The notes under the pieces: model-generated
Seen by the model: the letters and a program-made list of their open reading frames with translations, nothing else
Told to the model about the DNA's origin: nothing
Database searches by the model: none
Program-made: the position numbers and the translations under genes
Shown here: positions 9,590 through 50,158 of the stretch, piece after piece
Position numbering within the stretch: position 1 is the stretch's first letter
Layout of the letters: each line of letters begins with the position of its first letter
IMG/VR virus record: IMGVR_UViG_3300044644_002471
Coordinates: 1 to 50,158 of that record
Direction: 5' to 3' (one strand)
DNA length: 50,158 nucleotides
DNA from: a virus

Positions 9590-9597
9590 GATAAATA
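9590..9597 (+). promoter_or_regulatory. NATAAATA octamer before the GT29-like array
   Basis: GATAAATA ends 5 bases before the ATG at 9603. It precedes only the first of the four tandem copies; the others have related but imperfect AATAAAGATA / AATAAAAATAC in the same place. Confidence 0.4.
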
Positions 9598-9602
9598 AAA
9601 GT

Positions 9603-10283: not shown

Positions 10284-10301
10284 AGATACACATAATACAG
10301 T

Positions 10302-10982: not shown

Positions 10983-10997
10983 AAATACAAGTAAAAT

Positions 10998-11678: not shown

Positions 11679-11693
11679 AAATACAAGTAAAAT

Positions 11694-12374: not shown

Positions 12375-12421
12375 AAAATACCACATTGATTTTCCTTACA
12401 ACAAAAATTATAATAGCGTAC

Positions 12422-12886: not shown

Positions 12887-12889
12887 TTT

Positions 12890-13816: not shown

Positions 13817-13817
13817 T

Positions 13818-20377: not shown

Positions 20378-20385
20378 ATACATAT

Positions 20386-23300
20386 ATGTCGGATATCACA
20401 AGGTTTATAGATGATAGGTTACCTAACTCTGTAACATCATTAACACCCACACAACTGCCAATTGACAATAATGAACCATTAACATTTATTGAATGGGCAA
20501 AATTTGGCGGTGAAAATATTACTTCAGGTACTGAAGAATATCTTGCGCGTTATAGCTCTTATCTCAATAATTGGTTTACACAAAAAAATATATCGAAAGC
20601 AGATAGTCAAGCAACAATACAAAAGCTTTATTTTAGCCTTATTAATGATATTGTTATTAATTATTCTACTGTCGACGAACAGAGGTTTCTCAAGAATATT
20701 GATCCAACAAATCAGCGCGATCTAGCTGCCGCAGTACCGTTTTTTGCAAAAAAGCTAAAAGATATATGTCTCTATTACTCCACACTGCGTGACAAAGTAC
20801 AAAATACAGCACTAGCTAACAATTTAAACGGTTCAAATTATGGTGTACAGAAACTTATATATAACGCTATAATCGAAACTGTAACTACTGATGATTATGT
20901 AAGAGATACATCATCTTTATATTCACCTATTTCCTCAATTAAAAATGATACTGTCGTAGAAGTTGAAGATATTTACGACGTGTATTCAAATTATTATGAT
21001 ATATCACCAGTTGCTCCTGCGTCTGCGTACAATAGCAATAATGATGAACGTTCAAAATATTTTAATTTAAACCAATATACTGTTGACCCATATTTGTTTT
21101 TAAATCTGGATGAAAGTATATTAAGAGCAATATTTCTTTATCCGTTTTACCTTATCGAGCTTGGTAAAAATTTAACAATTGATCCAGCCATTAATTCTAC
21201 ACAACTCGGATTTTTAAAAGATAGTGATTATACAAAGCTTATAAGCGTACAGCAACCTGAGTCTTTAAATCTTGTTGATCAGAAAAATTTTGTTACAAAA
21301 TTTATAGGTACTGATTTTTATTATTTACAAACTAATTCTACAGGCAGTATTAGCACTTCAGGCATTTTATTTGAAGCTGAAAGTGAATTTGCAAATATTT
21401 TAAATAAACGCTACCCTAGCGTCGCAGCTGTTCCTAGTGAAGAATTCTTAAAGACGGGTAAAGAAGTAGGTTTATTTTTTAAACCAGACAAACAAGGGTT
21501 ATTACACTTTACGAATTTTAAATTCGTCCCCGTTGTAAAAGAGGTACTTGATCCGAATACTGTATATTATTTCCCTGATCCATCAAAATACGGTAACATT
21601 ACAAGTAATACACAGCAGGATTTTCGAACACCGTTTATATTTCGTGAGGAAAATTATTTCAACAAACTCGATTTTTCTAACCAATATGCATTCGGTGACG
21701 TCAAGTCAGATTATCAACTACATACTTTCCGCGCTTATCAATCGCGTGAACAGAGCTTAAACATATCAAACTTTGGTTTAGTAAGATATTCAGATTCTCA
21801 AGAATTTTTTAAAGGTGAAAAAAAGAACATATGGGCAAACAGCGATGTTTATCCACTGGTACCTGCCAATTTGTTTCCTATTGATGAAAGAATACAAACA
21901 CAATTACCTATTAATAAAACACTCATACAGTATAAGAGTGATATTTACGGTAACGATTACGGATTGTATAAAGACGTTGAGCCGTATAAAGTAACACAGG
22001 AGCTTTCAAAAACTACATCTCTGCCATTCCAATGTCTCGTTTTGGACGGTCATGTATTTTACGATTCTATTTCGGGGTTTAATTTTAACTATAATGTTGT
22101 AGATACTGAAAAAGGTTATTCTGGAGTAATCTTAAAAACATCTACCTCTACCTTCAACAACACACCCTCCGGTACAGGCAGATTTTCACTTTCTAGTGTC
22201 GACTATACAATCATATCTTATGAGTTTCAGCCCGAAAGTTTCTGTGAAGATTATATTAATGTAGAGTATGATTGTAATGTAAAAGACGGTCAATCATTTA
22301 CACTTTCAAATGATTCGTTACTGCCAGACATGCCAACTGACAGCCCATCATATGACCCTAACAACTCAGCATTGTACTACGAAGAGCTGGTAGACGGTGG
22401 CGTCAATCACTTAAATCTCCCGACATACCGCGCTACTTTTGCATACCCAGGTGATTTTACATATACACCACCGTTTACATCTATCGGTGATTATGATGGT
22501 AGTTTTTATTTTGTAGCGAATAGCGGTCAACCTTGCGGAGCAGGTAGCGCTCCATCCTTATATACTGAATCTGTTTTTTTCCTTGATTACCATATACCTT
22601 TACGTGAAACTGTCATCGACACCACATCATCATATGTAACAGAAAATAAAACAATTTATGATGCAGAATATAGAGTATATGGTGATATGTATTTTAGACG
22701 CGCGTCAGACTCTAAAGTATTGCCACTCTCTTCAGCACTAAGCGCAATATTCATCAAATATAATAATACTATACAGGAAGAACTATATACAAAGGTTATA
22801 AACTTCGATATATATTATGATACAATTTTATTAGAGACAGAAAATTACGCAATATTTGATGCCGTAGTACCATCACCTGATGGTAGCAAGATTTACAGTA
22901 ATACAGGTACAATGAATGCCATCTCGAAAGGTACGCATCGTGAGTTTGAGAAAGTATCTACTGTATGGTTCGATGAAATAAATAATAATCTTCTTGTATG
23001 CAAGATGTGTATACTTCCGGAGTTAAGTGCATCAAATTACAAAATAATATACCCAAAAGTATTTTTATATGATATAGGTACGAAAGAATTTTCACAGGTT
23101 TATCCACAGGAGCGTGATGAGAGTTTAACTTTTGAAATGTTGCGTAGCTTTTCATTAATTGACAAAAGCATAGAGCTCAATATTATAGAAATTGATAAAC
23201 CTGTCTTGACATATAACAATGATACTGACACATACAAATTGACATATGTAGGACGTGATGTGTCATGTATGTTTTATATTTTCGTAATAGAGTTTGCATA

Positions 23301-23556
23301 TATTAGCGGTGTTGTAGCTATAAAAACTCAAACAATGTACATGCCGACAATGGATGTATTAGATTTAAACTTCGCTAATCCTGCTTTTTTAACAGAATTT
23401 GATAATTACGCAACAATAGGTTCAAGAACAGGTAGTATTGACGCGTCAGATAATACTTTCGTGTGGGGACACATTGATCCACCAGTACCATACATTACTT
23501 TTGATGGGGAATATATCGCAACCGAGGACGGCTTAAATATAATGTATAGTCTATAA
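20386..23556 (+). CDS. Large baseplate/virion structural protein, unassigned
   Basis: 1056 residues, not recognised as a named family. The N-terminal ~180 residues are helical (FIEWAKFGGENITSGTEEYL; YFSLINDIVINYSTV; AAAVPFFAKKLKDICLYYS). The rest is beta-rich with many Tyr, Asn and Asp. No signal peptide or membrane segment is seen. It sits 8 bases after the PKD/propeller gene and before the first fibre gene. By order this is the gp7-gp8-gp10 region of T4, so a wedge protein that connects to the fibres is the best guess. The start has an imperfect TTAAATAC upstream rather than the full octamer. Confidence 0.5.
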   Translation: MSDITRFIDDRLPNSVTSLTPTQLPIDNNEPLTFIEWAKFGGENITSGTEEYLARYSSYLNNWFTQKNISKADSQATIQKLYFSLINDIVINYSTVDEQRFLKNIDPTNQRDLAAAVPFFAKKLKDICLYYSTLRDKVQNTALANNLNGSNYGVQKLIYNAIIETVTTDDYVRDTSSLYSPISSIKNDTVVEVEDIYDVYSNYYDISPVAPASAYNSNNDERSKYFNLNQYTVDPYLFLNLDESILRAIFLYPFYLIELGKNLTIDPAINSTQLGFLKDSDYTKLISVQQPESLNLVDQKNFVTKFIGTDFYYLQTNSTGSISTSGILFEAESEFANILNKRYPSVAAVPSEEFLKTGKEVGLFFKPDKQGLLHFTNFKFVPVVKEVLDPNTVYYFPDPSKYGNITSNTQQDFRTPFIFREENYFNKLDFSNQYAFGDVKSDYQLHTFRAYQSREQSLNISNFGLVRYSDSQEFFKGEKKNIWANSDVYPLVPANLFPIDERIQTQLPINKTLIQYKSDIYGNDYGLYKDVEPYKVTQELSKTTSLPFQCLVLDGHVFYDSISGFNFNYNVVDTEKGYSGVILKTSTSTFNNTPSGTGRFSLSSVDYTIISYEFQPESFCEDYINVEYDCNVKDGQSFTLSNDSLLPDMPTDSPSYDPNNSALYYEELVDGGVNHLNLPTYRATFAYPGDFTYTPPFTSIGDYDGSFYFVANSGQPCGAGSAPSLYTESVFFLDYHIPLRETVIDTTSSYVTENKTIYDAEYRVYGDMYFRRASDSKVLPLSSALSAIFIKYNNTIQEELYTKVINFDIYYDTILLETENYAIFDAVVPSPDGSKIYSNTGTMNAISKGTHREFEKVSTVWFDEINNNLLVCKMCILPELSASNYKIIYPKVFLYDIGTKEFSQVYPQERDESLTFEMLRSFSLIDKSIELNIIEIDKPVLTYNNDTDTYKLTYVGRDVSCMFYIFVIEFAYISGVVAIKTQTMYMPTMDVLDLNFANPAFLTEFDNYATIGSRTGSIDASDNTFVWGHIDPPVPYITFDGEYIATEDGLNIMYSL

Positions 23557-23559
23557 ATA
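23552..23559 (+). promoter_or_regulatory. TATAAATA late-promoter-like octamer
   Basis: An exact TATAAATA that overlaps the upstream TAA stop and ends 5 bases before the ATG at 23565. It is the first promoter-like site of the fibre block. Confidence 0.55.
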
Positions 23560-23564
23560 ATAGT

Positions 23565-25850
23565 ATGGCATTTAGCACTAAGAGATTTTCTGATTTTACT
23601 AAGCGTGACAAGAGTCAATTATTACTGTCAAGCTATTTTGTAGGATATCAGGATAGCGGTCTAAAATCTGAAATACGTGTACCGATTATTGATCTATTAA
23701 ACAACGTTTATAACCAAACACAGACAATTGTTTACTCAAATAGTAGTGCATGGGGAAATGCATCGACATCTTACATCGCCAATAGTAGTAATTTTCAAAC
23801 TACATATCAAACAGTAAGAGCTCTTAGTGCAAGTTGGGGCGGTACCGATACCGAAAATTGGGATAATACATACAGTATTATGCTCGCTAATAGTGCGGGA
23901 TGGAATGATGTGGAGAGTCTCTTTGCACTTAATAGTAGTGGTTGGGACAGTACGGAGTCAACAATGCGGAGTGAATCTGCTACTTGGGATTATACTTCAC
24001 TTCTTTTTAATAATTATTCACCACTATGGAATGATAACACAAATACACTGCAAGCTAACTCCGGTACATGGTCAGGTACTTCGTCTATTGTAAATGCTAA
24101 TTCAGCACAATGGGCATCTAATGATACCGCCCTTATAACGCTTACTGGTAACTGGCAAAGTACGTACACTAATGTGCAAGACAATTCAGCACAATGGGCA
24201 TCAACGTACACTAATGTACAAAATAATTCTGCACAATGGGCATCTAACGACACAGCCCTCATATCGCTTACTGGTAACTGGCAAAACACATACACTAACG
24301 TTAATGGTAGCAGTGGAAAATGGAATGATACATTCACTATAGTAAACGCTAATTCTGCACAATGGGCGATTGATAATTCTACGGATTTAGGTGTAAGAGC
24401 ACTTACGGGTAATTGGCAAAATACATACACTAATGTTAATAGTAACAGTAGTACATGGATTGATATATCAACCACCGTACAAAACAATTCAGCACAATGG
24501 GCATCTAACGATACTGCCCTTATATCACTTACAGGCAATTGGGAGGATACATATAGTACCGTACAAACAAACTCAGCATTCTGGTCATATAACGGAACTG
24601 ATGTTAAAATACTGACCAGCAACTGGGAAAATACATACACTAATGTAAGAAGTAACAGCGGTAGGTGGACAGAAGCATCTACAATTACACAGACATATTC
24701 CGCTGACTGGAATAATGCAGTAGCACGCATACCTGAAATTGCTAGTCTGTCAGGTAACTGGCAAGATACATATTCAACAGTATACACAAATTCGGCCACA
24801 TGGAACAGTTCAAGTGATAATGAGGTACGCGCTCTTACCGGTAACTGGCAAAATACATACACTACAGTAAGAGGTAATTCCGGGTCTTGGAGTGATTCAT
24901 ACTCGACTGTTAATACATTTTCTGCTGATTGGGGTTATTCAGGTACAGATATAAAAAATTTAACAGCTAACTGGGAATCTACATATACAACAGTTAGTGC
25001 TAGCTCAGCAAATTGGGAGAATACATACTCTAATGTATATGCTAACAGTGGTAGTTGGGTGAGCGTATACACGAGCTTTAACTCACAAAGTGCTGACAAC
25101 CTCGCAGTACAGAGTGCCGTTGCAGTAAACAGCGCATCATGGATCGATACTAATACAACAGTCTGGACAAACAGCGGTTTATGGGGAAGTGCAGTTGACA
25201 CAACACGATATGATGCTACATATACTACTGTACGACAATTAAGTTCGGGTTGGGTGTCAACAGAACAAGAAGTAACAGCTAGCTCAGATGACTGGTGGAG
25301 TGCACATAGTACTGTCATCACTAACTCTGCTAATTGGCAATCTGCGTATGATAATCAGGGTAATTATTTACTGCTCGCAGGCGGTACAGTAACAGGTAAC
25401 ACTTTATTTCAGCAAAATGTTACTATATATGGTGACCTTTCGTGTTCCGGTACACAGACTTTTGCTAATACCATCTTTACTACAACAAGTGCCCTGAGTG
25501 TTGTACATGTAGGATCGGGACCAGCAGCATGGATAGGAAATAGTGGAACCGGAGACATAGCATCTTTTTATGACATTGATGCAGGAGTAGAAGTTTTTCA
25601 TATTGGAGGGAATAACGGTACATTTCCAAACGTTGGTGTAAAAACATCAACCCCAAATAAAGATTTCACGGTTAATGGAGAAATAAGTGCGTCAAATCAT
25701 ATATGGACATCCGGTAATATATATGCTAATAATATAGAATTAAGTAATGCGACAGTACAAAACATCATAACACCATTAACTGCAAGTGGAGATTTTTTAA
25801 TTTTAAAAATTAATGGTACAGACCGCGCATTACGTTTGTGGAATTTTTAA
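23565..25850 (+). CDS. Long repeat-built tail fibre protein
   Basis: 761 residues. Residues ~45-600 are a run of repeats punctuated by Trp, with units such as LTGNWQNTYTNVNSNSSTW and NNSAQWASNDTALISLTGNW, most Trp residues being roughly 12-16 apart. The pattern implies an elongated fibrous shaft, probably trimeric. From ~604 a different module follows (LLLAGGTVTGNTLFQQNVTI, then GDIASFYDIDAGVEVFHIG, VGVKTSTPNKDFTVNGEIS). It has relatives in the genes at 25906, 26819 and 39075. The protein closes with a short ILKINGTDRALRLWNF strand. It is rich in Asn, Ser and Thr and has few charges. Part of the shaft is almost identical in DNA to the gene at 30540. Confidence 0.85.
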   Translation: MAFSTKRFSDFTKRDKSQLLLSSYFVGYQDSGLKSEIRVPIIDLLNNVYNQTQTIVYSNSSAWGNASTSYIANSSNFQTTYQTVRALSASWGGTDTENWDNTYSIMLANSAGWNDVESLFALNSSGWDSTESTMRSESATWDYTSLLFNNYSPLWNDNTNTLQANSGTWSGTSSIVNANSAQWASNDTALITLTGNWQSTYTNVQDNSAQWASTYTNVQNNSAQWASNDTALISLTGNWQNTYTNVNGSSGKWNDTFTIVNANSAQWAIDNSTDLGVRALTGNWQNTYTNVNSNSSTWIDISTTVQNNSAQWASNDTALISLTGNWEDTYSTVQTNSAFWSYNGTDVKILTSNWENTYTNVRSNSGRWTEASTITQTYSADWNNAVARIPEIASLSGNWQDTYSTVYTNSATWNSSSDNEVRALTGNWQNTYTTVRGNSGSWSDSYSTVNTFSADWGYSGTDIKNLTANWESTYTTVSASSANWENTYSNVYANSGSWVSVYTSFNSQSADNLAVQSAVAVNSASWIDTNTTVWTNSGLWGSAVDTTRYDATYTTVRQLSSGWVSTEQEVTASSDDWWSAHSTVITNSANWQSAYDNQGNYLLLAGGTVTGNTLFQQNVTIYGDLSCSGTQTFANTIFTTTSALSVVHVGSGPAAWIGNSGTGDIASFYDIDAGVEVFHIGGNNGTFPNVGVKTSTPNKDFTVNGEISASNHIWTSGNIYANNIELSNATVQNIITPLTASGDFLILKINGTDRALRLWNF
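23740..25340 (+). repeat. Degenerate protein-coding Trp-repeat region
   Basis: Imperfect direct repeats encode NSA.W / LTGNW..TYTNV units. Segments such as TTCAGCACAATGGGCATC recur (near 24094, 24184, 24490) and GGTAACTGGCAAA... recurs several times. The repeats also create a long open frame on the opposite strand, which is not a gene. Confidence 0.8.
25181..25337 (+). repeat. 157-bp block shared with 31409-31565 (copy A)
   Basis: 157 bases differ at only 4 positions from 31409-31565. They encode the WGSAVDTTRYDATYTTVRQL ... WWS.HSTVITNSANW part of two fibre shafts. Confidence 0.9.
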
Positions 25851-39074: not shown

Positions 39075-40907
39075 ATGGCAATTGAAATTTCATCAAATAG
39101 TGTAGTTAAGATCGTTGTAAGACGTGGACCTGATTCAGATAGACGTGTAACGCTACTATCAAATGGCGAATTAGGCTATTCGCAAGATTTACAACGGTTG
39201 TATATAGGTAATGGTATCACATCTGGCGGTATACCGGTAGGCAATAAATTCTTCGGTACTGTACCGACACGGTCCGCATATTTGAGTTTCGCGGAAGAAG
39301 GTGATACGATCTTTGACACTACAACAAAGACACTCTATGGTCTTGATTCCGGTGTTTGGAAAAACATACACCCGAGTTTTCAAGTAAATGTTTTTGAACA
39401 AAGCCTAAACGGCACCTGGAACCTTTCACCTGATGCATTTGCTGATGCGTTTACTTTTGATCCTGCCTATGAACCGTTGTCTGTCGCAGGTATACCTAAT
39501 AAGATAGATTTTAATTCAAACTTTCTCTCGCTATGCGCAGCATATGGTAGTATGTACTTCGGTGACATAAAAACACGAACTGTAAAAAATAATTTTGACG
39601 CAACAGTAAACGTATCTGACGATCTTTACATTAATTCTACAACAGCAAACCCTAACCAAATACAATTAATAGCGCGTAATTTTGCCGGTAATTCTTCTGT
39701 TAGAGGTGTAAGCGGTAACCTCGATGTCGGCGGTCGTAACAACTTATTTCTTACGACAGACAGTAAAAACGCACAGCAAGTCGATGTAAATCAAAATGTT
39801 TACATGCTTAAGACGGGAGGGACATATAACACACCATCGTTCCGTGTTGATGGGGTAAGTAAATTTCTCGATGATGCACACTTCGACAAAAATCTTACAG
39901 TCTATGGTAACTTGAGTGTATACGGCGATCTTTCATATCTTGAAACAGTAATATCCACTACAAGCGCAGTTCAAATTATTAATAAAAATAAAAATGCAAT
40001 AGCGCTTCAAGTATCACAACTAGACAACGCGGTAGATCAAACGTTAGCACGCTTTAGCAGTGATACGGGTTTCCCTGTAATGCAAATTAAAGACGGGCCT
40101 TATGTCGGCATTAACGCAGTTGAGACAGAGACAAGTTCAACAGCAAATTTTTCAGTATATGGTAAAACACTCTTTACTACAAACAATAGCACCTTTACTA
40201 TAAATGCAGGAACAGGTAGTACAAACTTAAACGGAAGAGTGAACATCGGTGGTGTAGTTGATTTCACTACCAGTCCAACAGCAAATACAACATCTAGCAG
40301 TATTCTTGTACTTAATGCCAATAATGAAATAGAACAGCGTTCGATAAATGCCAACGTCTGGGGCGGTAATTACTTACAAGGTGCTTTAACTGATAATTAT
40401 GTACCTAAAAAGCAAACAAGTGTAGCAAATACACTGATTGACTCTTTAATTTTTGATAACGGTACTAATGTTGGTATCGGTACTGCAGTACCTGGAACGT
40501 ACAAGCTGAATGTTAACGGGTCATTCTACAGTACTAGCATTAACACCGGGGCTATAGCATGTGCTAGTGTTGCAGCAACAGGCGCTATAACATGTGATAG
40601 CCTAGCAGCTACTGGTGACGTTGTCGCGTTTTCAACATCTGATAAAAGACTAAAAGACAACATACAAACGATTACCAGCCCGTTGCAGAAATTAAACCAA
40701 ATTTCCGGTGTAAGTTTTGAGTGGAGAGACGATCTACAACATACATACACCGGTAATGATGTAGGCGTTATAGCACAAGAAATTGAAAATATTTTACCAG
40801 AAGCAGTTATAACACGTGAAGACGGCTATAAAGCTGTAAGATATGAAAAAATTATACCTCTTTTAATAGAGGCAATAAAAGAATTGCAATCACAACTTAA
40901 TAAGTAA
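39075..40907 (+). CDS. Tail fibre with Mtd-N-like head and S74 self-cleaving chaperone domain
   Basis: 610 residues. The head at ~8-60 (KIVVRRGPDSDRRVTLLSNG, then YIGNGITSGG) is followed by a shaft; at ~268-400 comes the shared module DKNLTVYGNLSVYGDLSYLE (compare the gene at 25906). The C-terminal ~90 residues are a peptidase-S74 intramolecular chaperone: TSDKRLKDNIQ, then VSFEWRDD, GVIAQEIENILPEAV and KIIPLLIEAIKEL. Ser522 and Lys527 are the expected catalytic dyad. Such domains trimerise the fibre, then cut themselves off, here leaving a ~521-residue mature fibre. A repeated YST.. / SVAATGAITCDSLAATGD linker precedes the cut site. Confidence 0.9.
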   Translation: MAIEISSNSVVKIVVRRGPDSDRRVTLLSNGELGYSQDLQRLYIGNGITSGGIPVGNKFFGTVPTRSAYLSFAEEGDTIFDTTTKTLYGLDSGVWKNIHPSFQVNVFEQSLNGTWNLSPDAFADAFTFDPAYEPLSVAGIPNKIDFNSNFLSLCAAYGSMYFGDIKTRTVKNNFDATVNVSDDLYINSTTANPNQIQLIARNFAGNSSVRGVSGNLDVGGRNNLFLTTDSKNAQQVDVNQNVYMLKTGGTYNTPSFRVDGVSKFLDDAHFDKNLTVYGNLSVYGDLSYLETVISTTSAVQIINKNKNAIALQVSQLDNAVDQTLARFSSDTGFPVMQIKDGPYVGINAVETETSSTANFSVYGKTLFTTNNSTFTINAGTGSTNLNGRVNIGGVVDFTTSPTANTTSSSILVLNANNEIEQRSINANVWGGNYLQGALTDNYVPKKQTSVANTLIDSLIFDNGTNVGIGTAVPGTYKLNVNGSFYSTSINTGAIACASVAATGAITCDSLAATGDVVAFSTSDKRLKDNIQTITSPLQKLNQISGVSFEWRDDLQHTYTGNDVGVIAQEIENILPEAVITREDGYKAVRYEKIIPLLIEAIKELQSQLNK

Positions 40908-40923: not shown

Positions 40924-41508
40924 ATGGCGAAAATTGGATCAGGAGTAGTAAGTGTTGGTTCTGCTGCAGGAGCAGGCAATAGTATCAATGGTATTGACGG
41001 CATTGGGAATGTACAGACTAATATTACAACAAGGGAATCTACATTTATGGGAGGTAACCCTGCAAATCGTAACGCTGCAGGTGCAAAATGCATGCCTAAT
41101 CAGGCACAGAAAACAATTGACCTAGCAAATCTAACTGGCTCGGCATATAGGTATAACGGTACCCCCTCAACCAATGCATGGAAACAAACCGCAATGAGCG
41201 AATTTAAAGGTGCATACACAACAAAACCAACAGCAACGGCTAATGCCGTAGGGAGCGGTGATACTAATTATGGTAATTGTACTATTACATGTACACCACC
41301 GGCTGATGTAGGTGGTATTTGTGCAGTATACATAACACCTACACCGACTAATGGTGTTGCGGGATGGGTGTCGTGCAATGGTGCAAACCAATACGCATTT
41401 AGAGCCAACCTAAACCGAAATTACACTATATATATAAAAGATATTAATAATTGTGGTGCAAATTTAGAAATTAATATAAGCGGTACATATTATACGGGAC
41501 AACAATGA
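40924..41508 (+). CDS. Gly-rich head plus Cys-rich domain; candidate adhesin/fibre tip
   Basis: 194 residues, not recognised. The first ~35 residues are Gly/Ser/Ala/Ile repeats (GSGVVSVGSAAGAGNSINGI). The middle has KTIDLANLTGSAYRYNGTPS. From ~115 six short beta segments carry five Cys (NCTITCTPP; GICAVYITPTP; GWVSCNGANQY; NNCGANLEINISG), like a small Ig/fibronectin-type or jelly-roll domain. It follows the S74 fibre, and its stop overlaps the next start (ATGA). A small tip or cap protein on the fibre is plausible but unproven. Confidence 0.6.
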   Translation: MAKIGSGVVSVGSAAGAGNSINGIDGIGNVQTNITTRESTFMGGNPANRNAAGAKCMPNQAQKTIDLANLTGSAYRYNGTPSTNAWKQTAMSEFKGAYTTKPTATANAVGSGDTNYGNCTITCTPPADVGGICAVYITPTPTNGVAGWVSCNGANQYAFRANLNRNYTIYIKDINNCGANLEINISGTYYTGQQ

Positions 41509-42893
41509 ACTATAACACATCTTTACCTTACGAACAATATATAGCAAATATAATAAACAGAGCTCTTACATACATTGAGGTTCCTGTCGAAGAAACCAAA
41601 AGTATAAATGTATATATTGCAACACGCAACCAAAGTGTACTTGATCACTTTGGTATCTTTGATTTCCCTTTTAAAGAATTCGACGTATCAACAAAACAGA
41701 TACAGGCAATCGATGTATTGACGGGTAAACCTGCTATCATACAGTTACCTAACGCACAAAACGTTTATATTCCTGGTGACCCGAACTTATTATCACCACC
41801 ATCTATCGGTAACCCGTTATTTTTTGATCAGATAACAGAAAAAGATATTGCAGATATACAGTTACTTTTCTGCATATCAATAAAACAATTAAAAGATGCA
41901 GGGTACTTATATGAAACAACAACTAATGTACCAGCTGATTTATTTAAAAAGATATTACGCTTTCAATATATTACAAAAACATTAAATTTTGAAATAGAGC
42001 CTGACATAGCCTCTTTAATGTCTGATTATATTCATTCTATGTGTAATAAAAGATTACACGAGTATATAGATGAAGAAAAATATGATTTACTAACAATGCG
42101 TTATATCGTTAGTAACGCAACGGAAGAGATAAAAGATATCCCGCTCAATACGTTTAAAGAAATCGAGAATTTTTTAAGCGACACAGAGAAAGTAATTACA
42201 GTTTGGAAAAAATTTATAGAAAGATTAATAGATGAGCGAGTTGTCGAATATAATAAAGAATATGAAACAGTCATATCTGATATTACTAATTTAGAGTCAC
42301 GTGAAAGAGAGTTTATAAAATTACAGTACGATAAAGCGATTTCTGATCTTAAAGAAATTGATGTAGATGGTGCGTTACATAAATTTGGTAATGAGACACG
42401 ATTAATATTACGATACCTTCCAAATGACATAAAAACACCGGAAGGCCTACTAAACGTACGAATGTTCTCTACATATGAAAATACCATTCTTGGTGCATTA
42501 ATAGGGAACGGCGTCAACGTACACGAGAAAGATTTAAAGTTTGATTACATAAACACGATTATGGGGTCAAATGGAATCGATGATATATCAGTACAGCTTA
42601 ATGCGAATTATATCGAACAGATAAGAGAAATACGATTAAAACAAATTATTAAACATGCAGATGAACTCGTAAAGACAGTAGAGAGTGAAGCAGACGAGCT
42701 TGATGAAGAAGATCTACTCGAAATACTAGCTTCTATACGTGATTACGAGACATACAGACAACGACTCGAAGAGTATTCAGATATAAGCAGTATCGTGCAG
42801 TATTGGCCGTCAATATTGTTACCTGCTCCTGCGTACGCAGTACGTCTTGATAGTAAACATCAAAGACCGCTAATATTGCAGCTACAAGCTTGA
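41505..42893 (+). CDS. Unknown mostly helical protein, end of the structural block
   Basis: 462 residues. The first ~120 residues are mixed, with a PGDPNLLSPPSIGNPLFFDQ loop. The rest is predominantly helical and very charged (FIERLIDERVVEYNKEYETV; VKTVESEADELDEEDLLEIL), suggesting coiled coils. There is no membrane segment or signal. It overlaps the preceding gene by 4 bases, so it belongs to the structural operon. It could be a fibre connector, a head or neck component, or an assembly factor; the sequence does not decide. Confidence 0.6.
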   Translation: MNYNTSLPYEQYIANIINRALTYIEVPVEETKSINVYIATRNQSVLDHFGIFDFPFKEFDVSTKQIQAIDVLTGKPAIIQLPNAQNVYIPGDPNLLSPPSIGNPLFFDQITEKDIADIQLLFCISIKQLKDAGYLYETTTNVPADLFKKILRFQYITKTLNFEIEPDIASLMSDYIHSMCNKRLHEYIDEEKYDLLTMRYIVSNATEEIKDIPLNTFKEIENFLSDTEKVITVWKKFIERLIDERVVEYNKEYETVISDITNLESREREFIKLQYDKAISDLKEIDVDGALHKFGNETRLILRYLPNDIKTPEGLLNVRMFSTYENTILGALIGNGVNVHEKDLKFDYINTIMGSNGIDDISVQLNANYIEQIREIRLKQIIKHADELVKTVESEADELDEEDLLEILASIRDYETYRQRLEEYSDISSIVQYWPSILLPAPAYAVRLDSKHQRPLILQLQA

Positions 42894-42931: not shown

Positions 42932-43675
42932 ATGCAACAAATCAATTCGCTTTGGATAGGGCAAAACTTTTCATTGTTAGAGATGCTAACAATGAAAAGT
43001 TTTATAGATTTTGGGTATGAGTTTCACTTATGGGTTTATGACAAAAAGTTAAAAGATCTCTGTCCCGGCGGTGTTATTATACGCGATGCAAATGAAATTT
43101 TACCAGAGAGTACAATTTTTAGATATGATGGTGGTGGTGATTGTCGTGGTGGTTCTTTAGGCGGGTTTTCAGATTTATTTAGGTATTATTTAATTTATAA
43201 AATCGGCGGCATATATGTCGATATGGATGTAACATGTCTCTCTAAATTTGAGCTTAATGACGAATATGGATTCAGACCACATAGTCTGGTAAGTGCTGTT
43301 GCAAATATACTAAAAGCACCCGCCGGCTGCAGTTTTCTCGAAACATGTATTACATTAACTGAGGCAGCTATCGATAAAACAAATAATGAATGGGTAAAGC
43401 CTGTAAAGATTTTTGCAAATACAGTAAAGGAATATAATCTTGAAAAATACATTTTTCCTAATGAATATTTCGGTAATGACGCAGCGAAAGATATACTAGA
43501 TTATAAAACACAAAATTACTTCTTACTCAAAACCAAGTTACCAAATTACGGTATACATTGGTGTAAGGAGTGTTCACACGGAACATGGTCTTTTCGTGAT
43601 ATATACGATTGGAATTACCCTAAACCCCTCTCACTATACTACAACCTATTGTATAAACATAAACTGATATCATAA
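42932..43675 (+). CDS. GT32-like glycosyltransferase
   Basis: 247 residues. The segment GGFSDLFRYYLIYKIGGIYV at ~77-96 followed by DMDV (Asp97, Asp99) is the signature of GT32/Gly_transf_sug enzymes, where the DxD binds the metal and nucleotide sugar. It starts IPKIIH-like but shorter (INSLWIGQNFSLLEMLTMKS). Such enzymes add hexoses or N-acetylhexosamines to growing glycans and are common in capsule and phage modification loci. There is no membrane segment, so it is cytosolic. It opens the modification cassette and is 2 bases from the AsnB-type gene. Confidence 0.85.
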   Translation: MQQINSLWIGQNFSLLEMLTMKSFIDFGYEFHLWVYDKKLKDLCPGGVIIRDANEILPESTIFRYDGGGDCRGGSLGGFSDLFRYYLIYKIGGIYVDMDVTCLSKFELNDEYGFRPHSLVSAVANILKAPAGCSFLETCITLTEAAIDKTNNEWVKPVKIFANTVKEYNLEKYIFPNEYFGNDAAKDILDYKTQNYFLLKTKLPNYGIHWCKECSHGTWSFRDIYDWNYPKPLSLYYNLLYKHKLIS

Positions 43676-43677
43676 TA

Positions 43678-45339
43678 ATGTGTAGTATTTTTGCAGTCGT
43701 TGACAAAAAAAGAGGTATTGATATTGAACGATGCCGTAACGCACATACGGCATCGATATTGCGCGGACCTGATTATGCATATACATATATTCAGGATAAC
43801 ATTTTTATAGAATGCAAAGTATTATCTATTACTGGCACAACAAATAATAGTTATTTTAAACACAACAATTTATTTCTTGCATATAATGGTGAGATATATC
43901 AAGATTACGAATATAAATTACCTGATACAAATTTTATTTTAAAAGAATTTAAAGAATGTAATGGTGATTTTAAGGGTGTTTTACGACAATTAGATGGTAT
44001 GTTCGGTATTGTGTTACATGACAGTAACACTAATGAACTTGTTGTAGCGAGGGATGTGCAGGGTGAAAAAACTCTCTACATTTATGAAAGTGAGGAGTGT
44101 ATTATAATAAGTTCAACAATTGCATGTATTGACGTATATGTGGGCGGTCTGTCTATCAACTATAGACTAAACAATTATTATTTACATACACGACATTTCC
44201 TTACATACAACAAATCAATATACGAAGATGTGCAGCAAGTACAACCAGGTAGCTATATCATTTTCAATACTAAAAATTTTACACGGAAAAAAACGATTTT
44301 TAAAACTTTAGCTGATGCATACTGTGAAGAAACCTTACAAAAGAATATCACAAGACCTTATAAAGATTTATTAGAAGAGCTTGACCATTTGCTCGATAAA
44401 AATATAAAGCAAATGATACCTAAGAGAGCATGTAGTGTAAGCTTTTCTGGGGGTATCGATTCATCACTTATTGCTGCTTATATGAATAAGTATACTTCTG
44501 AATTCCTACCTATAGCTATTAACTGTATAGGTAAAGATTATATTACACAGGATTTATCAGCATTCAAACATCACATAACACCTACAATCAGCACACTTAA
44601 CATTACCGAGAAGGAGTGGTACGATGCATTGCATGAGACATATAAAATAGTACGGATGCCATTACCATCACATAATTATTGTACAAAAAAAATACTTACA
44701 AAATTTTTAAAACAAAAAAATATAAAGGTATGTCTCGGCGGTGAGGGTGCTGATGAGTTATTCGGGGGTTATGATTTTTATTGCAATATACAAAACGAAA
44801 CCACTAATATATCACCGTATTCAAGTTTTATACAGCATAGTATGTACGATAACGAAGAGCACCCTGCAGACTTAGCAAAGTATCTTAATAAAATATGGAA
44901 CTATTATTACAAACTTACAGGCGACACTGTAGCAGCTACATCATATACTGATACCTATTTAGTTGTTGCAGATGATGGCTTGCGGAATAGTGATCAGATA
45001 TATGGTTACTACGGCATAGAGGGTAGGTCACCTTTTATGAGATGGGAAATTATTAAATTTGCATTTAATCTCCCTTCTAAATATAAGCGCGGTAAGGTGC
45101 TATTACGAGATTTATTTCATAAATACTACCCTAACGTAAAAATACATAAAAAGCAAGGATTCACAGGCTTCCCTTGTGAATCATATAATTATTTTCCAAA
45201 AAAAATACATAATTTTGATGTATTAGCACTACATAATATAACTAATATACCAAAAACACCGGCATTATTATGGAAGCTTTTTAATTTACAATATTTTTAT
45301 GAATGCTATAATAGTAGGTACATCTGCAACCATTCTTGA
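43678..45339 (+). CDS. asnB: Glutamine-dependent asparagine synthetase-type amidotransferase (AsnB-like)
   Basis: 553 residues, the normal AsnB length. Cys2 (MCSIF) is the class-II glutaminase nucleophile, with LRGPD (28-32) and AYNGEIY (around 68-74) forming the ammonia site. The ATP-PPase loop SGGIDSS is at 257-263. Later GGEGADELFGGYDFY and IEGRSPFM match the synthetase domain. It would transfer ammonia from Gln to an activated carboxylate, classically aspartate. Because it sits among glycosyltransferases, amidation of a sugar carboxylate, as for AsnB-like proteins in O-antigen loci, is an attractive alternative. Its 3' end overlaps the next gene by 41 bases, an unusually long coding overlap. 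Confidence 0.9.
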   Translation: MCSIFAVVDKKRGIDIERCRNAHTASILRGPDYAYTYIQDNIFIECKVLSITGTTNNSYFKHNNLFLAYNGEIYQDYEYKLPDTNFILKEFKECNGDFKGVLRQLDGMFGIVLHDSNTNELVVARDVQGEKTLYIYESEECIIISSTIACIDVYVGGLSINYRLNNYYLHTRHFLTYNKSIYEDVQQVQPGSYIIFNTKNFTRKKTIFKTLADAYCEETLQKNITRPYKDLLEELDHLLDKNIKQMIPKRACSVSFSGGIDSSLIAAYMNKYTSEFLPIAINCIGKDYITQDLSAFKHHITPTISTLNITEKEWYDALHETYKIVRMPLPSHNYCTKKILTKFLKQKNIKVCLGGEGADELFGGYDFYCNIQNETTNISPYSSFIQHSMYDNEEHPADLAKYLNKIWNYYYKLTGDTVAATSYTDTYLVVADDGLRNSDQIYGYYGIEGRSPFMRWEIIKFAFNLPSKYKRGKVLLRDLFHKYYPNVKIHKKQGFTGFPCESYNYFPKKIHNFDVLALHNITNIPKTPALLWKLFNLQYFYECYNSRYICNHS

Positions 45340-45937
45340 TAACAAAAACGGGCGCTATATAGATAAATTTGACTATGTAGCGAGATCTATTTCGTCAGCG
45401 CAGTATACAGGGTATGAAGAATATACAGGTATAAAGACAGATTTATACTGGTCAAAATTTCAATTTTTGTATAGGATGAAGTTTTTAAAAACGATGTTTA
45501 ATGGTACACTTCTGCTATTAAATTCTGATCCTGATAATTTTTATGAAGGGTATGTACCTCAAAATGCTGTTTCAACAAGATATAAAAGACTAATGTTTGA
45601 TATGTGGTATAGCGAGCTTATAAAACAACATAATATTACTTCTTTAGTATATCAAGATACTACACAGATCTCTTTATTGCATAAATATGCGGGATTTAAA
45701 CAAACATGTGGTGTACAACCCTCAACACCAGTATACTCCAGCGCAGGGTTACGCGTAATACAGCACTTTATTGACATGCAAAAATATGAAAAAATCTACG
45801 TTACAGGCTTTTCATTTTTTGATCGCGGCACATACTTCGATGTCGCTAATAACCATATAGTACATGAACACTGTTATTATAAAGAAAAACTCTACTACAA
45901 GCGTCTTTTAGAGAGAGGGTTAATATATGAGCTGTAA
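45299..45937 (+). CDS. GT29-like glycosyltransferase, second cluster copy 1
   Basis: 212 residues and the most divergent member of the nine. Motif L reads IIVGTSATIL (GTS instead of GNG), then YIDKFDYVARSI and GYEEYTGIKTD. The motif S region is SSAGLRVI ... IYVTGFSFF. The HxxxxE is HCYYKE at 191-196, with its Glu 17 residues from the C-terminus as in the other second-cluster copies. The changed GNG and shorter middle suggest a different donor or reduced activity. The start lies inside the AsnB gene (41-base overlap); no later ATG preserves motif L. Confidence 0.65.
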   Translation: MNAIIVGTSATILDNKNGRYIDKFDYVARSISSAQYTGYEEYTGIKTDLYWSKFQFLYRMKFLKTMFNGTLLLLNSDPDNFYEGYVPQNAVSTRYKRLMFDMWYSELIKQHNITSLVYQDTTQISLLHKYAGFKQTCGVQPSTPVYSSAGLRVIQHFIDMQKYEKIYVTGFSFFDRGTYFDVANNHIVHEHCYYKEKLYYKRLLERGLIYEL

Positions 45938-46646
45938 GAAAGCTATAATAATTGGTAACGGGTCTGACGTCCTTAAATATGAAAATGGCCACAAAATAGA
46001 TAATTTTGATTATGTGGTGCGTATGGGTGATGCACCGCGGATTAAAGGGTATGAAAAATATGTAGGTACGAAAACAGATATGTTTAGAATTAAATGGTTT
46101 AATATGTTTTACATGGAGGAATTATTAGATAAAGAAAGACATAGCCAGCCACGTAAGACTTTTGATTTTGATATCACAAAGTGTGATATTCTCAATATAT
46201 GTCAAGATCCTGACGAATATACGGAAACAGCTTATACTGCTCATGAATATTACGATATCTCACTTAACAGAAACTTTTTATTACCGATAGGGAATCGTTA
46301 CTTACACGATTTATGTATTGAAAAATTTAATCTCAAGACACAAAAATGGTATTTTTTTAATGCCTATCATAATGCTGAGTTAATGTCTAGAATGCAATTA
46401 CAAAACTACAAAACAAACAGATCAGGCGTATGCGAATATCGGATCGGACCATCAGGTGGCCTATGCACTTTATGGTTTTTTTTAAACTTTATGCCTTATA
46501 GCATTTATATTACAGGATTTGATTCATGGAAAACAGGACATTATTGGAAGCCTCACATTGTTACTGATTACATGAGCCATAGTAGTATACATGAACGTAT
46601 ATTCATAAACAAACTTATTAAAAGAGGTTATATTAACGTCTTATAA
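45927..46646 (+). CDS. GT29-like glycosyltransferase, second cluster copy 2
   Basis: 239 residues. It has MSCKKAIIIGNGSDVL, then HKIDNFDYVVRMGDA and GYEKYVGTKTDMFR (motif L); GPSGGLCTLWF and IYITGFDSW (motif S); and HSSIHE (218-223, HxxxxE). It is longer than the array copies because of an insertion between ~60 and 120. It overlaps the previous gene by 11 bases (ATGAGCTGTAA) with GAGGG at 45915-45919, 7 bases before the ATG, a good SD that suggests coupled translation. Confidence 0.7.
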   Translation: MSCKKAIIIGNGSDVLKYENGHKIDNFDYVVRMGDAPRIKGYEKYVGTKTDMFRIKWFNMFYMEELLDKERHSQPRKTFDFDITKCDILNICQDPDEYTETAYTAHEYYDISLNRNFLLPIGNRYLHDLCIEKFNLKTQKWYFFNAYHNAELMSRMQLQNYKTNRSGVCEYRIGPSGGLCTLWFFLNFMPYSIYITGFDSWKTGHYWKPHIVTDYMSHSSIHERIFINKLIKRGYINVL

Positions 46647-46668
46647 AATATAAACAGGTGCTATATAT

Positions 46669-47391
46669 ATGAGTTGTAAGAATATTATTGTAATAGGTAA
46701 CGGCGGTAACATTTTAAAAAAGCAAAACGGTCATAAAATTGATAATTTTGATTACGTCGTAAGAATGGGCAATTGTGCTACTAAAGGATATGAAGAGCAT
46801 ACTGGTACAAAAACAGATCTCTATCGTGTTTCATGGGATAGATTGTTATACAATATAAACCAAGATATATGTCAACACACACCATACAAGTATATAGACA
46901 TACACTTTAATTTTAAAGAGTTGTTATTTTTAGAACGCGACCCTGATACATTTTATGAGACATTTCCTAATAACACTCGTAGGTCTAAGATATTAAATAA
47001 AGCGTTTTTTACTAACAACTCATTCCCTGATACAATATTTAAACCCTACATGCACCGTTTAATGCATGACAGTTGCATTGACTTTTTTAAACAAAAATAT
47101 AGTTTTAAAAAACATTCCTATATTCATATAGTTGATAGAATCAATGCATTTATGGCGGTAAACAAACCAACTACTACTAGAGATGTGATTTTACCGTCAA
47201 GTGGTCTTGTCACACTCTTATATATAATGAGGCTTTATCACCGTGATAATATTTATATAACAGGGTTTGATGGGTTTAAAACGAGATATTACTGGCGTGA
47301 TTTTGAGACGTATTTTGATGGGCATTGTGGTTACCGTGAACAGCTTTTTTTGCGTAAGTTAAAAAAAGAGGGTCGTATAAATGAATTATAA
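46669..47391 (+). CDS. GT29-like glycosyltransferase, second cluster copy 3
   Basis: 240 residues. Motif L: IIVIGNGGNIL, KIDNFDYVVRMGNC, GYEEHTGTKTDLYRVSW. Motif S: LPSSGLVTLLYI, IYITGFDGFKTRYYW. Motif VS: HCGYRE (219-224). AGGTG at 46656-46660 is 8 bases from the ATG. The middle (~65-165) has no close match to the first array apart from its helical character, so the second cluster has diverged for longer than the tandem array. Confidence 0.7.
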   Translation: MSCKNIIVIGNGGNILKKQNGHKIDNFDYVVRMGNCATKGYEEHTGTKTDLYRVSWDRLLYNINQDICQHTPYKYIDIHFNFKELLFLERDPDTFYETFPNNTRRSKILNKAFFTNNSFPDTIFKPYMHRLMHDSCIDFFKQKYSFKKHSYIHIVDRINAFMAVNKPTTTRDVILPSSGLVTLLYIMRLYHRDNIYITGFDGFKTRYYWRDFETYFDGHCGYREQLFLRKLKKEGRINEL

Positions 47392-48094
47392 GAAGCAAAT
47401 TATAGTTGTAGGTAATGGCAGTGATATACTTCAACATAAAAACGGATGTAAAATTGATAGTTTTGAGTGTGTAGTGAGAATGGGTAGCTGCAAGATTAAC
47501 GGGTATGAGGAGTACGTTGGTACAAAAACAGATCTGTATAGATCTTCATGGGATAGAATGTTTGAAGATAGTAATGGCGTACTTTTACCTATAAAAAATG
47601 GAGTTATATCAAAAAATTTTTTATTTTTAGAGCCGGATAATGATGTATTTTATGAATCAATCACAGACGCAAACAATACCGCTTTAAAAAAAATATTTTA
47701 TAAACAAAAATTTGCAAAACATCGCTTTCACGAATTACTGTCGTGTAAAATACCGGAGAGACTCTTACATGATTATTTCATAAAAAATATTAGTAACCTT
47801 TACAGTACACATAACATTATGTATATGTCGATAAAGCAGCGTATTGACGCTTTTAAAAGACTAAACAATGTGCTGCAATTTGAAAAAGCCTTTCTACCTT
47901 CAGGCGGCATATGTACACTTTTGTATGTTCTAGATACATATAAAGACTATTCTGTATGGATAACAGGTTTCGATGGATTCACTACAAAATATTACTGGAG
48001 ATCAAATAATGTATATTTTAACGTGCATTCAAGTATACATGAGAGATTGTTTTTACAACAGTTAATAAAAAAAAATATAATTAAAGTACTGTAA
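47381..48094 (+). CDS. GT29-like glycosyltransferase, second cluster copy 4
   Basis: 237 residues. Motif L: IIVVGNGSDIL, KIDSFECVVRMGSC, GYEEYVGTKTDLYRSSW. Motif S: LPSGGICTLLYVLD and WITGFDGFTTKYYW. Motif VS: HSSIHE (216-221). It overlaps the previous gene by 11 bases (ATGAATTATAA), the same overlap length as the pair at 45927, with GAGGG 8 bases before the ATG. The repeated overlap design suggests that the genes arose from one duplicated unit with its junction. Confidence 0.7.
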   Translation: MNYKKQIIVVGNGSDILQHKNGCKIDSFECVVRMGSCKINGYEEYVGTKTDLYRSSWDRMFEDSNGVLLPIKNGVISKNFLFLEPDNDVFYESITDANNTALKKIFYKQKFAKHRFHELLSCKIPERLLHDYFIKNISNLYSTHNIMYMSIKQRIDAFKRLNNVLQFEKAFLPSGGICTLLYVLDTYKDYSVWITGFDGFTTKYYWRSNNVYFNVHSSIHERLFLQQLIKKNIIKVL

Positions 48095-48113
48095 CGTTGA
48101 ATAACAGTTTTTA

Positions 48114-48122
48114 TGGTATAAT
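48114..48122 (+). promoter_or_regulatory. Extended -10 promoter-like site
   Basis: TGGTATAAT is a full TGN-TATAAT extended -10, 15 bases before the ATG at 48138. A TTGAAT lies upstream at 48097-48102 but the spacer is only 14 bases, so the -35 is doubtful. The site suggests host-polymerase, non-late transcription of the GT8-like gene and those after it. Confidence 0.45.
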
Positions 48123-48137
48123 ATTTTTTTATAAAGT

Positions 48138-48842
48138 ATGATTAATGTATATATAGGATGGGATCCGCGCGAAGTAAGAGCTTATAATGTATGTGCATCC
48201 TCGCTAAAAAGACACACAACAGTACCTATAAATATTATCCCAATTATTCGTGAAGAATTAGAGCATCAAAATAAACATAAAAGACCGCATGATAATTTAG
48301 CTGCTACACAGTTTACATATACACGATTTCTCGTCCCGTTTCTTAATAATTATAACGGTATAGCGGTATTTTGTGATTGCGACTTTTTATGGTTAACAGA
48401 TATCAACCAATTACTTCAAGAAATAAATTACGGCACAGCAGATTTTAACAAAAAAGCTGTATACGTTGTCAAGCACGATTATACACCAGTAAATACTATA
48501 AAAATGGATGGTGCTGTACAAACGATATACCCGAGAAAAAACTGGTCTAGTCTAATAGTTTGGAATTGTAATCATCCAAAACATAAAGTGCTTAGTACTG
48601 AATGTATAAATACTGCGACAGGGGCTTTTCTTCATAGATTTCAATGGCTTAATGATGAGGAAATAGGAGAAATAGATTTAGGGTGGAACTGGTTGGTCGA
48701 TGTATATGATATAAATACTTACGGAAAAGAATTAAAAGCATTACACTATACTGAAGGAGGCCCGTGGTTTGAAAATTATAAAAATTGTTCTTTCTCAGAT
48801 TTATGGAATACAGAGGAATCTCTCTCACTACAGACAACTTAA
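48138..48842 (+). CDS. GT8-like glycosyltransferase
   Basis: 234 residues. It starts MINVYIGWDPREVRAYNVCA, a typical start for a phage and bacterial glycosyltransferase group related to GT8. DCD at 80-82 (within AVFCDCDFLWLTDI) is the metal-binding DxD. The end has ALHYTEGGPWFENYKN, where the conserved late His coordinates the metal in this superfamily (HYT.GGPW). It transfers a sugar from a nucleotide donor; the exact sugar is unknown. There is no signal or membrane anchor. It has its own promoter-like site upstream. Confidence 0.8.
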   Translation: MINVYIGWDPREVRAYNVCASSLKRHTTVPINIIPIIREELEHQNKHKRPHDNLAATQFTYTRFLVPFLNNYNGIAVFCDCDFLWLTDINQLLQEINYGTADFNKKAVYVVKHDYTPVNTIKMDGAVQTIYPRKNWSSLIVWNCNHPKHKVLSTECINTATGAFLHRFQWLNDEEIGEIDLGWNWLVDVYDINTYGKELKALHYTEGGPWFENYKNCSFSDLWNTEESLSLQTT

Positions 48843-48849
48843 GCGGTAC

Positions 48850-49161
48850 ATGCCGCAACTATCTCAAGAGCGTGATAATAGAAGCACAGTGTTGTATAGC
48901 AAATATAAAGACTTTTTTAAGAAATACTTTAAAAAGATATCTATCAAATATTCTAATATTTGTTATCTGTACAAAAACCGTTTACTTGCTGTACGGTTTT
49001 TTGATTATACGCGCGATTGCCCAACAGAAATTATAAATTGCAAACAACTTCGTGAGGAGTATTTACAAGAATTAAAAGAGCTTCAAAAATACGGGATGTG
49101 TACAATGTGTAAAATACCATTTTTGCAGGAAAAAATCATTCAAACGTTTATACTCAAATAG
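48850..49161 (+). CDS. Small basic protein with CxxC, unknown
   Basis: 103 residues from ATG 48850 (MPQLSQERDN). The frame is open further up to a TTG at 48769 inside the GT8-like gene, preceded by AAGGAGG. That SD-like run is also coding (EGGP) for the conserved end of the GT8-like protein, so I prefer the internal ATG. The protein is Lys/Tyr-rich in the first half (YSKYKDFFKKYFKKISIKYS) and has CTMCKIPF near the end, a CxxC that could bind metal. It is not recognised. Its place between a glycosyltransferase and an oxygenase suggests an accessory role in the cassette. Confidence 0.5.
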   Translation: MPQLSQERDNRSTVLYSKYKDFFKKYFKKISIKYSNICYLYKNRLLAVRFFDYTRDCPTEIINCKQLREEYLQELKELQKYGMCTMCKIPFLQEKIIQTFILK

Positions 49162-49216
49162 TATATCTATATTATTTAAAAGTGTAGATTAATATAAGAA
49201 AGAGGTAAGTAATTTC

Positions 49217-49966
49217 ATGTCAAATTGTATATACGACAGCTTTGTAAATTGTAAAAAATACAATAAACCATGGGTGCATTATGAGACTACAGATATTCTT
49301 GATAGTGATCTACTTGACTTTATATATAATTTTAAATTCCCAACGAATGAAGAAATTATTACTGCACCTGTAAACTTTTGCACATTACGTAAATTCGAAA
49401 AAATATCTGCACTATTGAAAGGTGAACAGTACAAGCAAACATTCTTAGATGAAAGACACTCCTGCGAAATAAATTTTACTCAAACATTTAGACAGCAGCA
49501 TGTACAAGCACAACGACTTTTTGAAATGTTTTTGGATAAAAAAGTAATAAGTTATCTTGAAAATACCGGCAACGTCTCGTTAAAAGACTCTTTTTTAAGA
49601 ATCCAACTCTTAAAGGATATCGACGGGTACACAGTAACACCACATATTGATTATGAAAAAATCTTTACCTTACAGTGTTTTTTTATGACAAATACGGAAA
49701 GCGACATTGGTACAATACTGCTTTCTGAACGTAACGGTGACATTATTAAGCGCACACAATATCATGAAAATGCTGGTACATTTTTCTTTCCGACCAAATG
49801 TACACAAAAAAATATACCGATGAATAATACGGACGAAATGACATGGCATTCGTTTTACGGTAAAATTAACGTACAGAGAATATCGCTTATGGTAAATTTT
49901 TTCAGTAGTATACCACTCGGTAATAATGCTATTACAAATAAAGATGTAGTTTTTTATAAACTGTGA
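49217..49966 (+). CDS. 2-oxoglutarate/Fe(II)-dependent oxygenase-like protein
   Basis: 249 residues. The cupin-type facial triad is visible: His143-Ile-Asp145 (in VTPHIDYEKIFTLQCFFM), distal His211 (TWHSFYG) and, ten residues on, Arg221 (VQRISLMVNFF), which would bind 2-oxoglutarate. Spacing and the flanking strands fit phage and bacterial prolyl-hydroxylase-like enzymes. It would hydroxylate a protein side chain or a sugar. An SD-like AGAGGT lies 10 bases before the ATG. It overlaps the next GT29-like gene by 4 bases (GTGA). The substrate is unknown; a partner to glycosylation, such as making a hydroxyl acceptor, is an inference. Confidence 0.8.
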   Translation: MSNCIYDSFVNCKKYNKPWVHYETTDILDSDLLDFIYNFKFPTNEEIITAPVNFCTLRKFEKISALLKGEQYKQTFLDERHSCEINFTQTFRQQHVQAQRLFEMFLDKKVISYLENTGNVSLKDSFLRIQLLKDIDGYTVTPHIDYEKIFTLQCFFMTNTESDIGTILLSERNGDIIKRTQYHENAGTFFFPTKCTQKNIPMNNTDEMTWHSFYGKINVQRISLMVNFFSSIPLGNNAITNKDVVFYKL

Positions 49967-50158
49967 TTAATACGCCGCATAAGGTTATAGTTGTTGGCAA
50001 TAGTAGTAATATTTTACAGGTAAATAATGGTAACATAATAGACTCTTTCGACTATGTTGTAAGAATGGGGATGTGTCGTATTGACGGTTACGAATTACAT
50101 GTAGGGTCAAAAACAGATTTACTATGTGGCACTATTAACGATTTTTTTGTACCACATT
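49963..50158 (+). CDS. GT29-like glycosyltransferase, 5' part (cut by window end)
   Basis: 65 residues are present, from a GTG start that overlaps the oxygenase stop (GTGA). They contain the whole motif L: HKVIVVGNSSNIL, IIDSFDYVVRMGMC, GYELHVGSKTD. GNS replaces GNG. No ATG lies between the previous stop and motif L, so GTG is the only sensible start. It continues beyond the window, showing that the GT29-like cluster is longer than seen here. Confidence 0.65.
   Translation, partial: MINTPHKVIVVGNSSNILQVNNGNIIDSFDYVVRMGMCRIDGYELHVGSKTDLLCGTINDFFVPH

Follow-up and report, generated by a model that had tools for sequence, protein, structure and literature searches.

What do the sugar-modifying genes behind the tail-fibre genes of a virus build, and on which surface is the product placed? 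The question is raised by a gene cassette at positions 42,932 to 50,158 of the IMG/VR record IMGVR_UViG_3300044644_002471, and the whole stretch of 50,158 bases that was analysed is called the window below. The record showed no end repeats and is probably a fragment rather than a complete genome. A glycan-modification gene cassette downstream of an S74 tail-fibre gene is real. We tentatively read it, at a little below an even chance, as a fibre-linked phage cassette that would build a glycan, for which the sequence makes the virion a likelier target than the host envelope.

The fibre genes, the cassette ORFs and the further GT29 genes described below are all on the plus strand of the window. 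The tail-fibre gene (39075-40907), with a predicted C-terminal S74 intramolecular chaperone (Pfam Peptidase_S74, 1e-15; PHROG tail fibre/baseplate families), encodes a candidate target, and it is followed by the gene for F194 (40924-41508), a small fibre-adjacent protein that is a possible fibre tip and a possible target, and by the gene for F462 (41505-42893), another fibre-adjacent protein. The cassette then opens with a GT32-like glycosyltransferase gene (42932-43675) and a gene for an AsnB-like, putatively glutamine-dependent amidotransferase (43678-45339), followed by four genes for GT29-fold enzymes, namely A (45299-45937, overlapping the AsnB-like gene by 41 bases), B (45927-46646), C (46669-47391) and D (47381-48094). 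A gene for a GT24/GT8-like transferase with a DxD motif (48138-48842), an open reading frame (ORF) with a 2-oxoglutarate (2OG)-Fe(II) oxygenase-like motif (49217-49966) and a fifth GT29-fold gene with a GTG start, cut by the end of the record (49963-50158), complete the set. The successive spacings of these nine ORFs were 2, -41, -11, 22, -11, 43, 374 and -4 bases, so that the overlaps of 4, 11 and 41 bases between same-strand genes, reported in an earlier note made from the letters alone, were all seen in the coordinates. That note had also called the genes contiguous, which was correct up to the GT24-like gene but not before the 2OG-motif ORF, where the 374-base gap carries a further ORF (48769-49161, start uncertain and probably near 48994) with the conserved C-terminus CP..I..C..LR.....CxxC. 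Likewise, the cassette genes that it listed are present, but four more GT29 genes at 9564-12374 stood outside its list.

A second full cassette was found in a phage contig ~50% identical to the window, 3300008448_014967 (L009), where the order matched that of the window: S74 fibre, F194, F462, GT32, AsnB, five GT29 genes and the GT24-like gene. The proteins were 39% (F462), 67% (GT32), 47% (AsnB) and 59% (GT24-like) identical to those of the window, F194 was conserved, and the CxxC ORF was kept, with homologues at 12683-13093 and 13972-14247. The GT29 enzymes A, B and C paired one to one with the L009 genes at 8613, 10725 and 10001, with starred support, and D paired with its nearest relative at 11420; the GT29 genes stand in another order in L009, with A first, then an additional copy, then C, B and D. 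The suggestion that the cassette travels as a unit was thus borne out beside the fibre genes at a protein identity of 39-67%. Profile scans with AsnB, GT32 and F462 matched L009's contig only, and these negatives are weak because patterns made from two sequences are narrow.

A more distant arrangement was present in L011/L012, where S74 fibres, a fibre-tip-like protein and an F462-like end were followed by a GT24-like gene, a SPASM radical SAM gene and then four GT29 genes interspersed with an aminotransferase gene. F194 was weakly similar to a fibre-adjacent protein of L011, and the C-terminus of F462 was weakly similar to L011 3901-4683. SPASM radical-SAM genes recurred near phage fibre and GT29 genes, in L009 at 13068-13946 and 19241-20362 and in L011 at 5292-6143 and 11860-12744. 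A scan of bacterial genome contigs gave a single distant relative, and among 296 genomes of that bacterium's phylum only one, the seed genome itself, had a GT29 gene above the cut-off, so no host gene origin was found.

The assignment of the GT29 set held in the profile searches. The four full cassette genes matched PF00777 (Glyco_transf_29) with E values from 7e-6 to 3e-17 (A, 7.4e-6; B, 2.4e-12; C, 3.2e-17; D, 9.2e-15), the truncated fifth gene matched at 3.9e-12, and all five scored above the curated cut-off (26-63 bits compared to 23). An AlphaFold model of gene C, built on 48 viral sequences, had a pLDDT of 84.4 and was compared with solved structures using VIA-align. The closest was human ST6GALNAC2 (PDB ID: 6apj), with a Z of 15.8 over 177 residues at 2.9 Å, and ST3Gal1 gave a Z of 15.1; GT42 came next at 11.2 (CstII about 11), and unrelated folds gave 7.9 or less. 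The GT29 sequence profile alone matched ST3Gal1 at 9e-11. The predicted GT29 fold of the cassette enzymes is a firm assignment.

The residues of the active site showed a different picture. ST3Gal1 Asn170 contacts the phosphate of cytidine monophosphate (CMP) and can bond the C8 hydroxyl (O8) of Neu5Ac, and N170A reduces activity (PMC6884586). At the equivalent position in motif L, the window's GT29 group had Asn in 1/20 sequences and Gly in 16/20, whereas Asn was kept in 25/28 enzymes linked to NeuB genes and in all 14 other GT29 enzymes. His299 of motif III was kept in 5/20 of the window's group compared to 25/28 of the NeuB-linked enzymes; it was present in gene B and in all but one of the four array genes at 9564-12374, and absent in A, C and D. 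The catalytic base His316 in HxxxxE was kept in 18/20 of the group, including all of A-D. Although the base is kept, the loss of Asn170 and mostly of His299 makes the label sialyltransferase unsafe for these enzymes, and the pattern suggests to us that in this clade either the donor or the way it is bound has changed.

The second array consists of four tandem GT29-fold genes (9564-10283, 10302-10982, 10998-11678 and 11694-12374) between a minus-strand gene and a dUTPase gene. The four proteins were 74-85% identical to one another. The array was present and identical in L010, but the 2.8-kb segment was missing, with a clean junction, from the otherwise colinear relative G042 (~80% DNA identity to the window), and it was also missing from G041, which has different fibres beyond window position ~38.3 kb; the array therefore represents a variable insertion or loss. 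The copies were under purifying selection (dN/dS about 0.23), with values of 0.07 and 0.11 in the donor motifs, 0.27 in the middle and 0.16 in the C-terminal region, and amino-acid variation was concentrated outside sialylmotifs L and S. The numbers are small, and this pattern would suit a common donor with differing acceptors. G042 also carries, at 16037-25814 (L064-L065), a separate sugar-gene island in which epimerases, a GT11-like fucosyltransferase and methyltransferases were recognised by eye.

The remaining glycosyltransferases and the putative oxygenase fared unevenly. The GT32 gene had been named correctly, with a match to Gly_transf_sug (PF04488) at 8.6e-9 and 36.4 bits compared to a cut-off of 23, and its DxD motif reads DMD. 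A GT8 identity for the 48138-48842 gene was not shown, since nothing in Pfam matched the gene even at an E threshold of 1; its only match was phrog_28018 (3e-50), of which a relative in phage S-SCSM2R is annotated as 'glycosyltransferase family 24', and the predicted product is an uncharacterised DxD family. A GT24-like gene adjoined GT29 genes in L011, L029, L044 and phage DLP6, but this pairing was rejected as functional evidence: it is weak by itself because viral contigs very often carry a GT24-like gene, with more than 550 matches, and only 1/50 such contigs had a GT29 gene. In phage S-SCSM2R (L164 5001-8526) the GT24-like gene lies beside two other genes and annotated KdsB and KdsA; the two genes there, 262 and 263, were tested as GT29 candidates and are not GT29. 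The proposed 2OG oxygenase retained its motif (H143, D145, H211, R221, spaced as H143xD145...H211x9R221), but neither a profile nor a homologue could be added to it: Pfam, PHROGs and NCBIfam gave no profile match, homologue scans found no relatives, there was no similarity to the 2OG-like ORF of L011, and a single-sequence AlphaFold prediction gave no usable fold (pLDDT 27.5). The ORF is absent at the corresponding place in L009, so the idea that an oxygenase creates a hydroxyl acceptor falls outside the conserved core of the cassette.

The AsnB-like assignment was confirmed by matches to Asn_synthase (PF00733, 6.6e-29) and GATase_7 and by the retention of Cys2, SGGIDSS and GEGADE. The best solved relative was E. 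coli AsnB (PDB ID: 1ct9, 3.9e-24). The protein scored 168.6 bits against the asparagine synthase B equivalog TIGR01536, below its cut-off of 267.1, and 99.9 bits against the WbpS/XrtA-system amidotransferase model TIGR03108 (eps_aminotran_1), far below its cut-off of 816.9. A distant AsnB-like relative in S-SCSM2R likewise follows a long tail fibre gene. In bacteria, the AsnB-like WbpS forms uronamides (PMC7468200), and asnB has been found clustered with genes for Pse transferases in a protein O-glycosylation cluster (PMC6120980).

Put together, these assignments suggest the following route. The GT32- and GT24-like enzymes would place the first sugars on protein or on an existing glycan, and the GT29-fold paralogues would next add a CMP-activated sugar of the 2-ulosonate type, using a common donor and differing acceptors. 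The donor would be a host CMP-ulosonate such as CMP-3-deoxy-D-manno-octulosonate (CMP-Kdo) rather than phage-made sialic acid, which we consider likelier because the donor pocket is altered and NeuA and NeuB are missing; Kdo transfer has been proposed for plant GT29-like proteins (PMC5811610). The AsnB-like enzyme may turn the carboxylate of a sugar into an amide. The target would be the virion's own fibre proteins rather than the host envelope, and the expected outcome would be changed surface properties of the fibre or changed receptor binding. The virion is favoured over the host because the genes run on from fibre genes, also in distant phages. A more specific version, which we regard as rather unlikely when taken as a whole, is that a GT29-fold branch specific to phages, with a rebuilt donor pocket and amplified in arrays, acts together with the AsnB-like amidotransferase to decorate the tail fibres of the phage itself with a ulosonate glycan that is amidated or unusual in some other way, with the paralogues diversifying the acceptors.

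Several points weigh against the fibre-linked glycan. Adjacency to fibre genes does not prove that the fibre is the substrate, and CMP-Kdo as the GT29 donor is a guess. The pattern-limited scans found only one other full cassette, and the similarity of F194 and F462 to L011 is weak. The window's GT29 group is, as judged from the sequences, essentially one clade, so the residue signature would represent one or a few events of loss and not many independent ones. Where E. coli AsnB has Arg49, a glutamine contact, the alignment shows Val in the AsnB-like protein of the window, so its use of glutamine is not assured; Val also occurs there in the L009 protein and apparently in that of S-SCSM2R. Finally, the late-promoter motif TATAAATA occurred at chance frequency, and no late-promoter signal was seen.

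The alternative that survives best, although we hold it somewhat unlikely, is that the cassette remodels the host envelope, either lipopolysaccharide (LPS) or capsule, which would mask receptors, exclude superinfecting phages or keep progeny off debris. Loci for O-antigen and capsule typically contain genes of the GT32, GT29 and AsnB-like types, uronamides of the WbpS type belong to LPS chemistry (PMC7468200), and the island of G042 with its epimerases and GT11-like fucosyltransferase, identified by eye, is a separate set of sugar genes. However, in both L009 and L011 the fibre genes immediately precede the cassette, and none of its genes was recognised as a membrane polymerase, a flippase or an O-antigen ligase.

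Next in standing, and improbable in our view, is true phage sialylation, in which the GT29 enzymes would transfer sialic, legionaminic or pseudaminic acid with the help of phage NeuB and NeuA encoded outside the 50-kb fragment. Among 41 viral records with a GT29 gene, 18 had NeuB and 21 a NeuA-type cytidylyltransferase gene, mostly close to the GT29 gene and usually within a few kb. The controls were 50 viral contigs carrying a GT24-like gene, and NeuB was found in none of them (Fisher p 4e-8; 4e-6 after manual removal of near-duplicate contigs; about 1e-3 as a weaker bound when total bases were allowed for). L038 (12250-13768) and 17 other GT29 viral records had NeuB close to GT29, usually together with a NeuA-type gene, and the huge phage LR756508 (L162 8534-13355) combined NeuB with four or more GT29 genes, as well as GDP-mannose dehydratase and fucose-synthase-like genes recognised by eye. 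Such neighbourhoods are apparent phage modules for nonulosonate transfer, and because viral GT29 genes adjoin NeuB and NeuA, capping with acidic sugars, as the earlier note proposed, is plausible for viral GT29 enzymes in general. For the window's clade the proposal is weakened, as Asn170 (kept in 1/20) and His299 (kept in 5/20) are mostly lost, whereas the NeuB-linked enzymes keep each in 25/28, and NeuA and NeuB were absent from all records of the clade, namely the window, L009, L010, L011/L012, L029 and L044, which are fragmentary.

We consider it very unlikely that these are unlinked auxiliary genes at a variable spot, with AsnB supplying asparagine and the rest being passengers or decoys without a common product. 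The fibre end is indeed variable, with other fibres there in G041, and the 2OG-motif ORF is missing from the cassette of L009, but the order and overlaps are conserved at just 39-67% protein identity, the young GT29 array is under purifying selection and the AsnB-like protein falls under the asparagine synthase cut-off. That the enzymes glycosylate phage DNA bases is hardly credible: glycosyltransferases of DNA-hypermodifying phages are known (literature cited in PMC12619734) and an oxygenase-like ORF is present, but no base-modifying partner was recognised nearby, the known acceptors of GT29-fold enzymes are glycans and the genes sit in the fibre block.

Elsewhere, the window encodes T4-like baseplate wedge proteins, a dUTPase, a clamp loader and many fibre proteins, and the nearest isolates by the clamp loader were cyanophages and Pelagibacter phage Mosig at ~37% identity. 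Rfam and tRNA scans were empty, and sigma-70 and terminator scans were near chance. A perfect 18-bp inverted repeat with a 5-nt loop (42963-43003, -20.7 kcal/mol) lies within the start of the GT32 gene and is not conserved in L009.

The gene set beside the fibres suggests one particular glycan that can be tested for, and the GT29 family that would take part in making it, known above all from animals, has here diverged at its donor site. The linkage of viral GT29 genes to NeuB and NeuA suggests that nonulosonate transfer is recurrent among large environmental phages and distinct from the window's group. To our knowledge, few phages are known to decorate their structural proteins chemically and few enzymes are known to do so, and the enzymes of mycobacteriophage virion glycosylation are reportedly other than those of the window. 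The mere presence of GT29 genes in phages has precedents: BFVD lists one on an uncultured Caudovirales phage, DLP6 has an unannotated one and LR756508 has several. No description of phage GT29 arrays was found in the literature searched by word, nor were the AsnB and GT32 partners at a fibre locus or the altered GT29 signature found described there.

Compared to the CAZy GT29 sialyltransferases (ST6GALNAC2, ST3Gal1) and bacterial and plant GT29-like proteins, the window's enzymes share the fold across most of the modelled chain, the pattern of sialylmotifs L and S, the Asn147 equivalent and His316 in HxxxxE. They differ in being ~210-260 aa long, in having mostly Gly for Asn170 and a replaced motif-III His in 15/20, and in lying in tandem arrays beside phage fibres. 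The viral NeuB-NeuA-GT29 modules (L037, L038, L039 and LR756508) likewise lie on large phage contigs and often comprise more than one GT29 gene, but they keep Asn170 and His299 and carry genes for the CMP-nonulosonate, whereas the fragmentary records of the window's clade mostly lack those residues and showed none of those genes. The clusters of the uronamide-forming amidotransferases WbpS/WbqG resemble the window in having an AsnB-like gene inside a glycosyltransferase cluster (PMC7468200), and the protein O-glycosylation cluster of T. forsythia combines an AsnB-like gene with a terminal ulosonate transferase (PMC6120980); the flippase and sugar-nucleotide genes of both were not seen in the window's cassette. 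In Stenotrophomonas phage DLP6 a GT29-fold gene with the R-x-G signature, as in the window's group, comes after a GT24-like gene (AAY80_201/202), but the phage has a single GT29 gene and no AsnB, GT32 or fibre gene annotated nearby. AAY80_202 (L161 7644-8435) is annotated as hypothetical, and as a cultured phage with a member of the window's GT29 group beside a GT24-like gene, DLP6 offers a starting system. Mycobacteriophage virion glycosylation (Freeman 2023, as cited in PMC12619734) has in common with the present reading the idea that phage glycosyltransferases act on structural proteins, and belongs to another group of phages.

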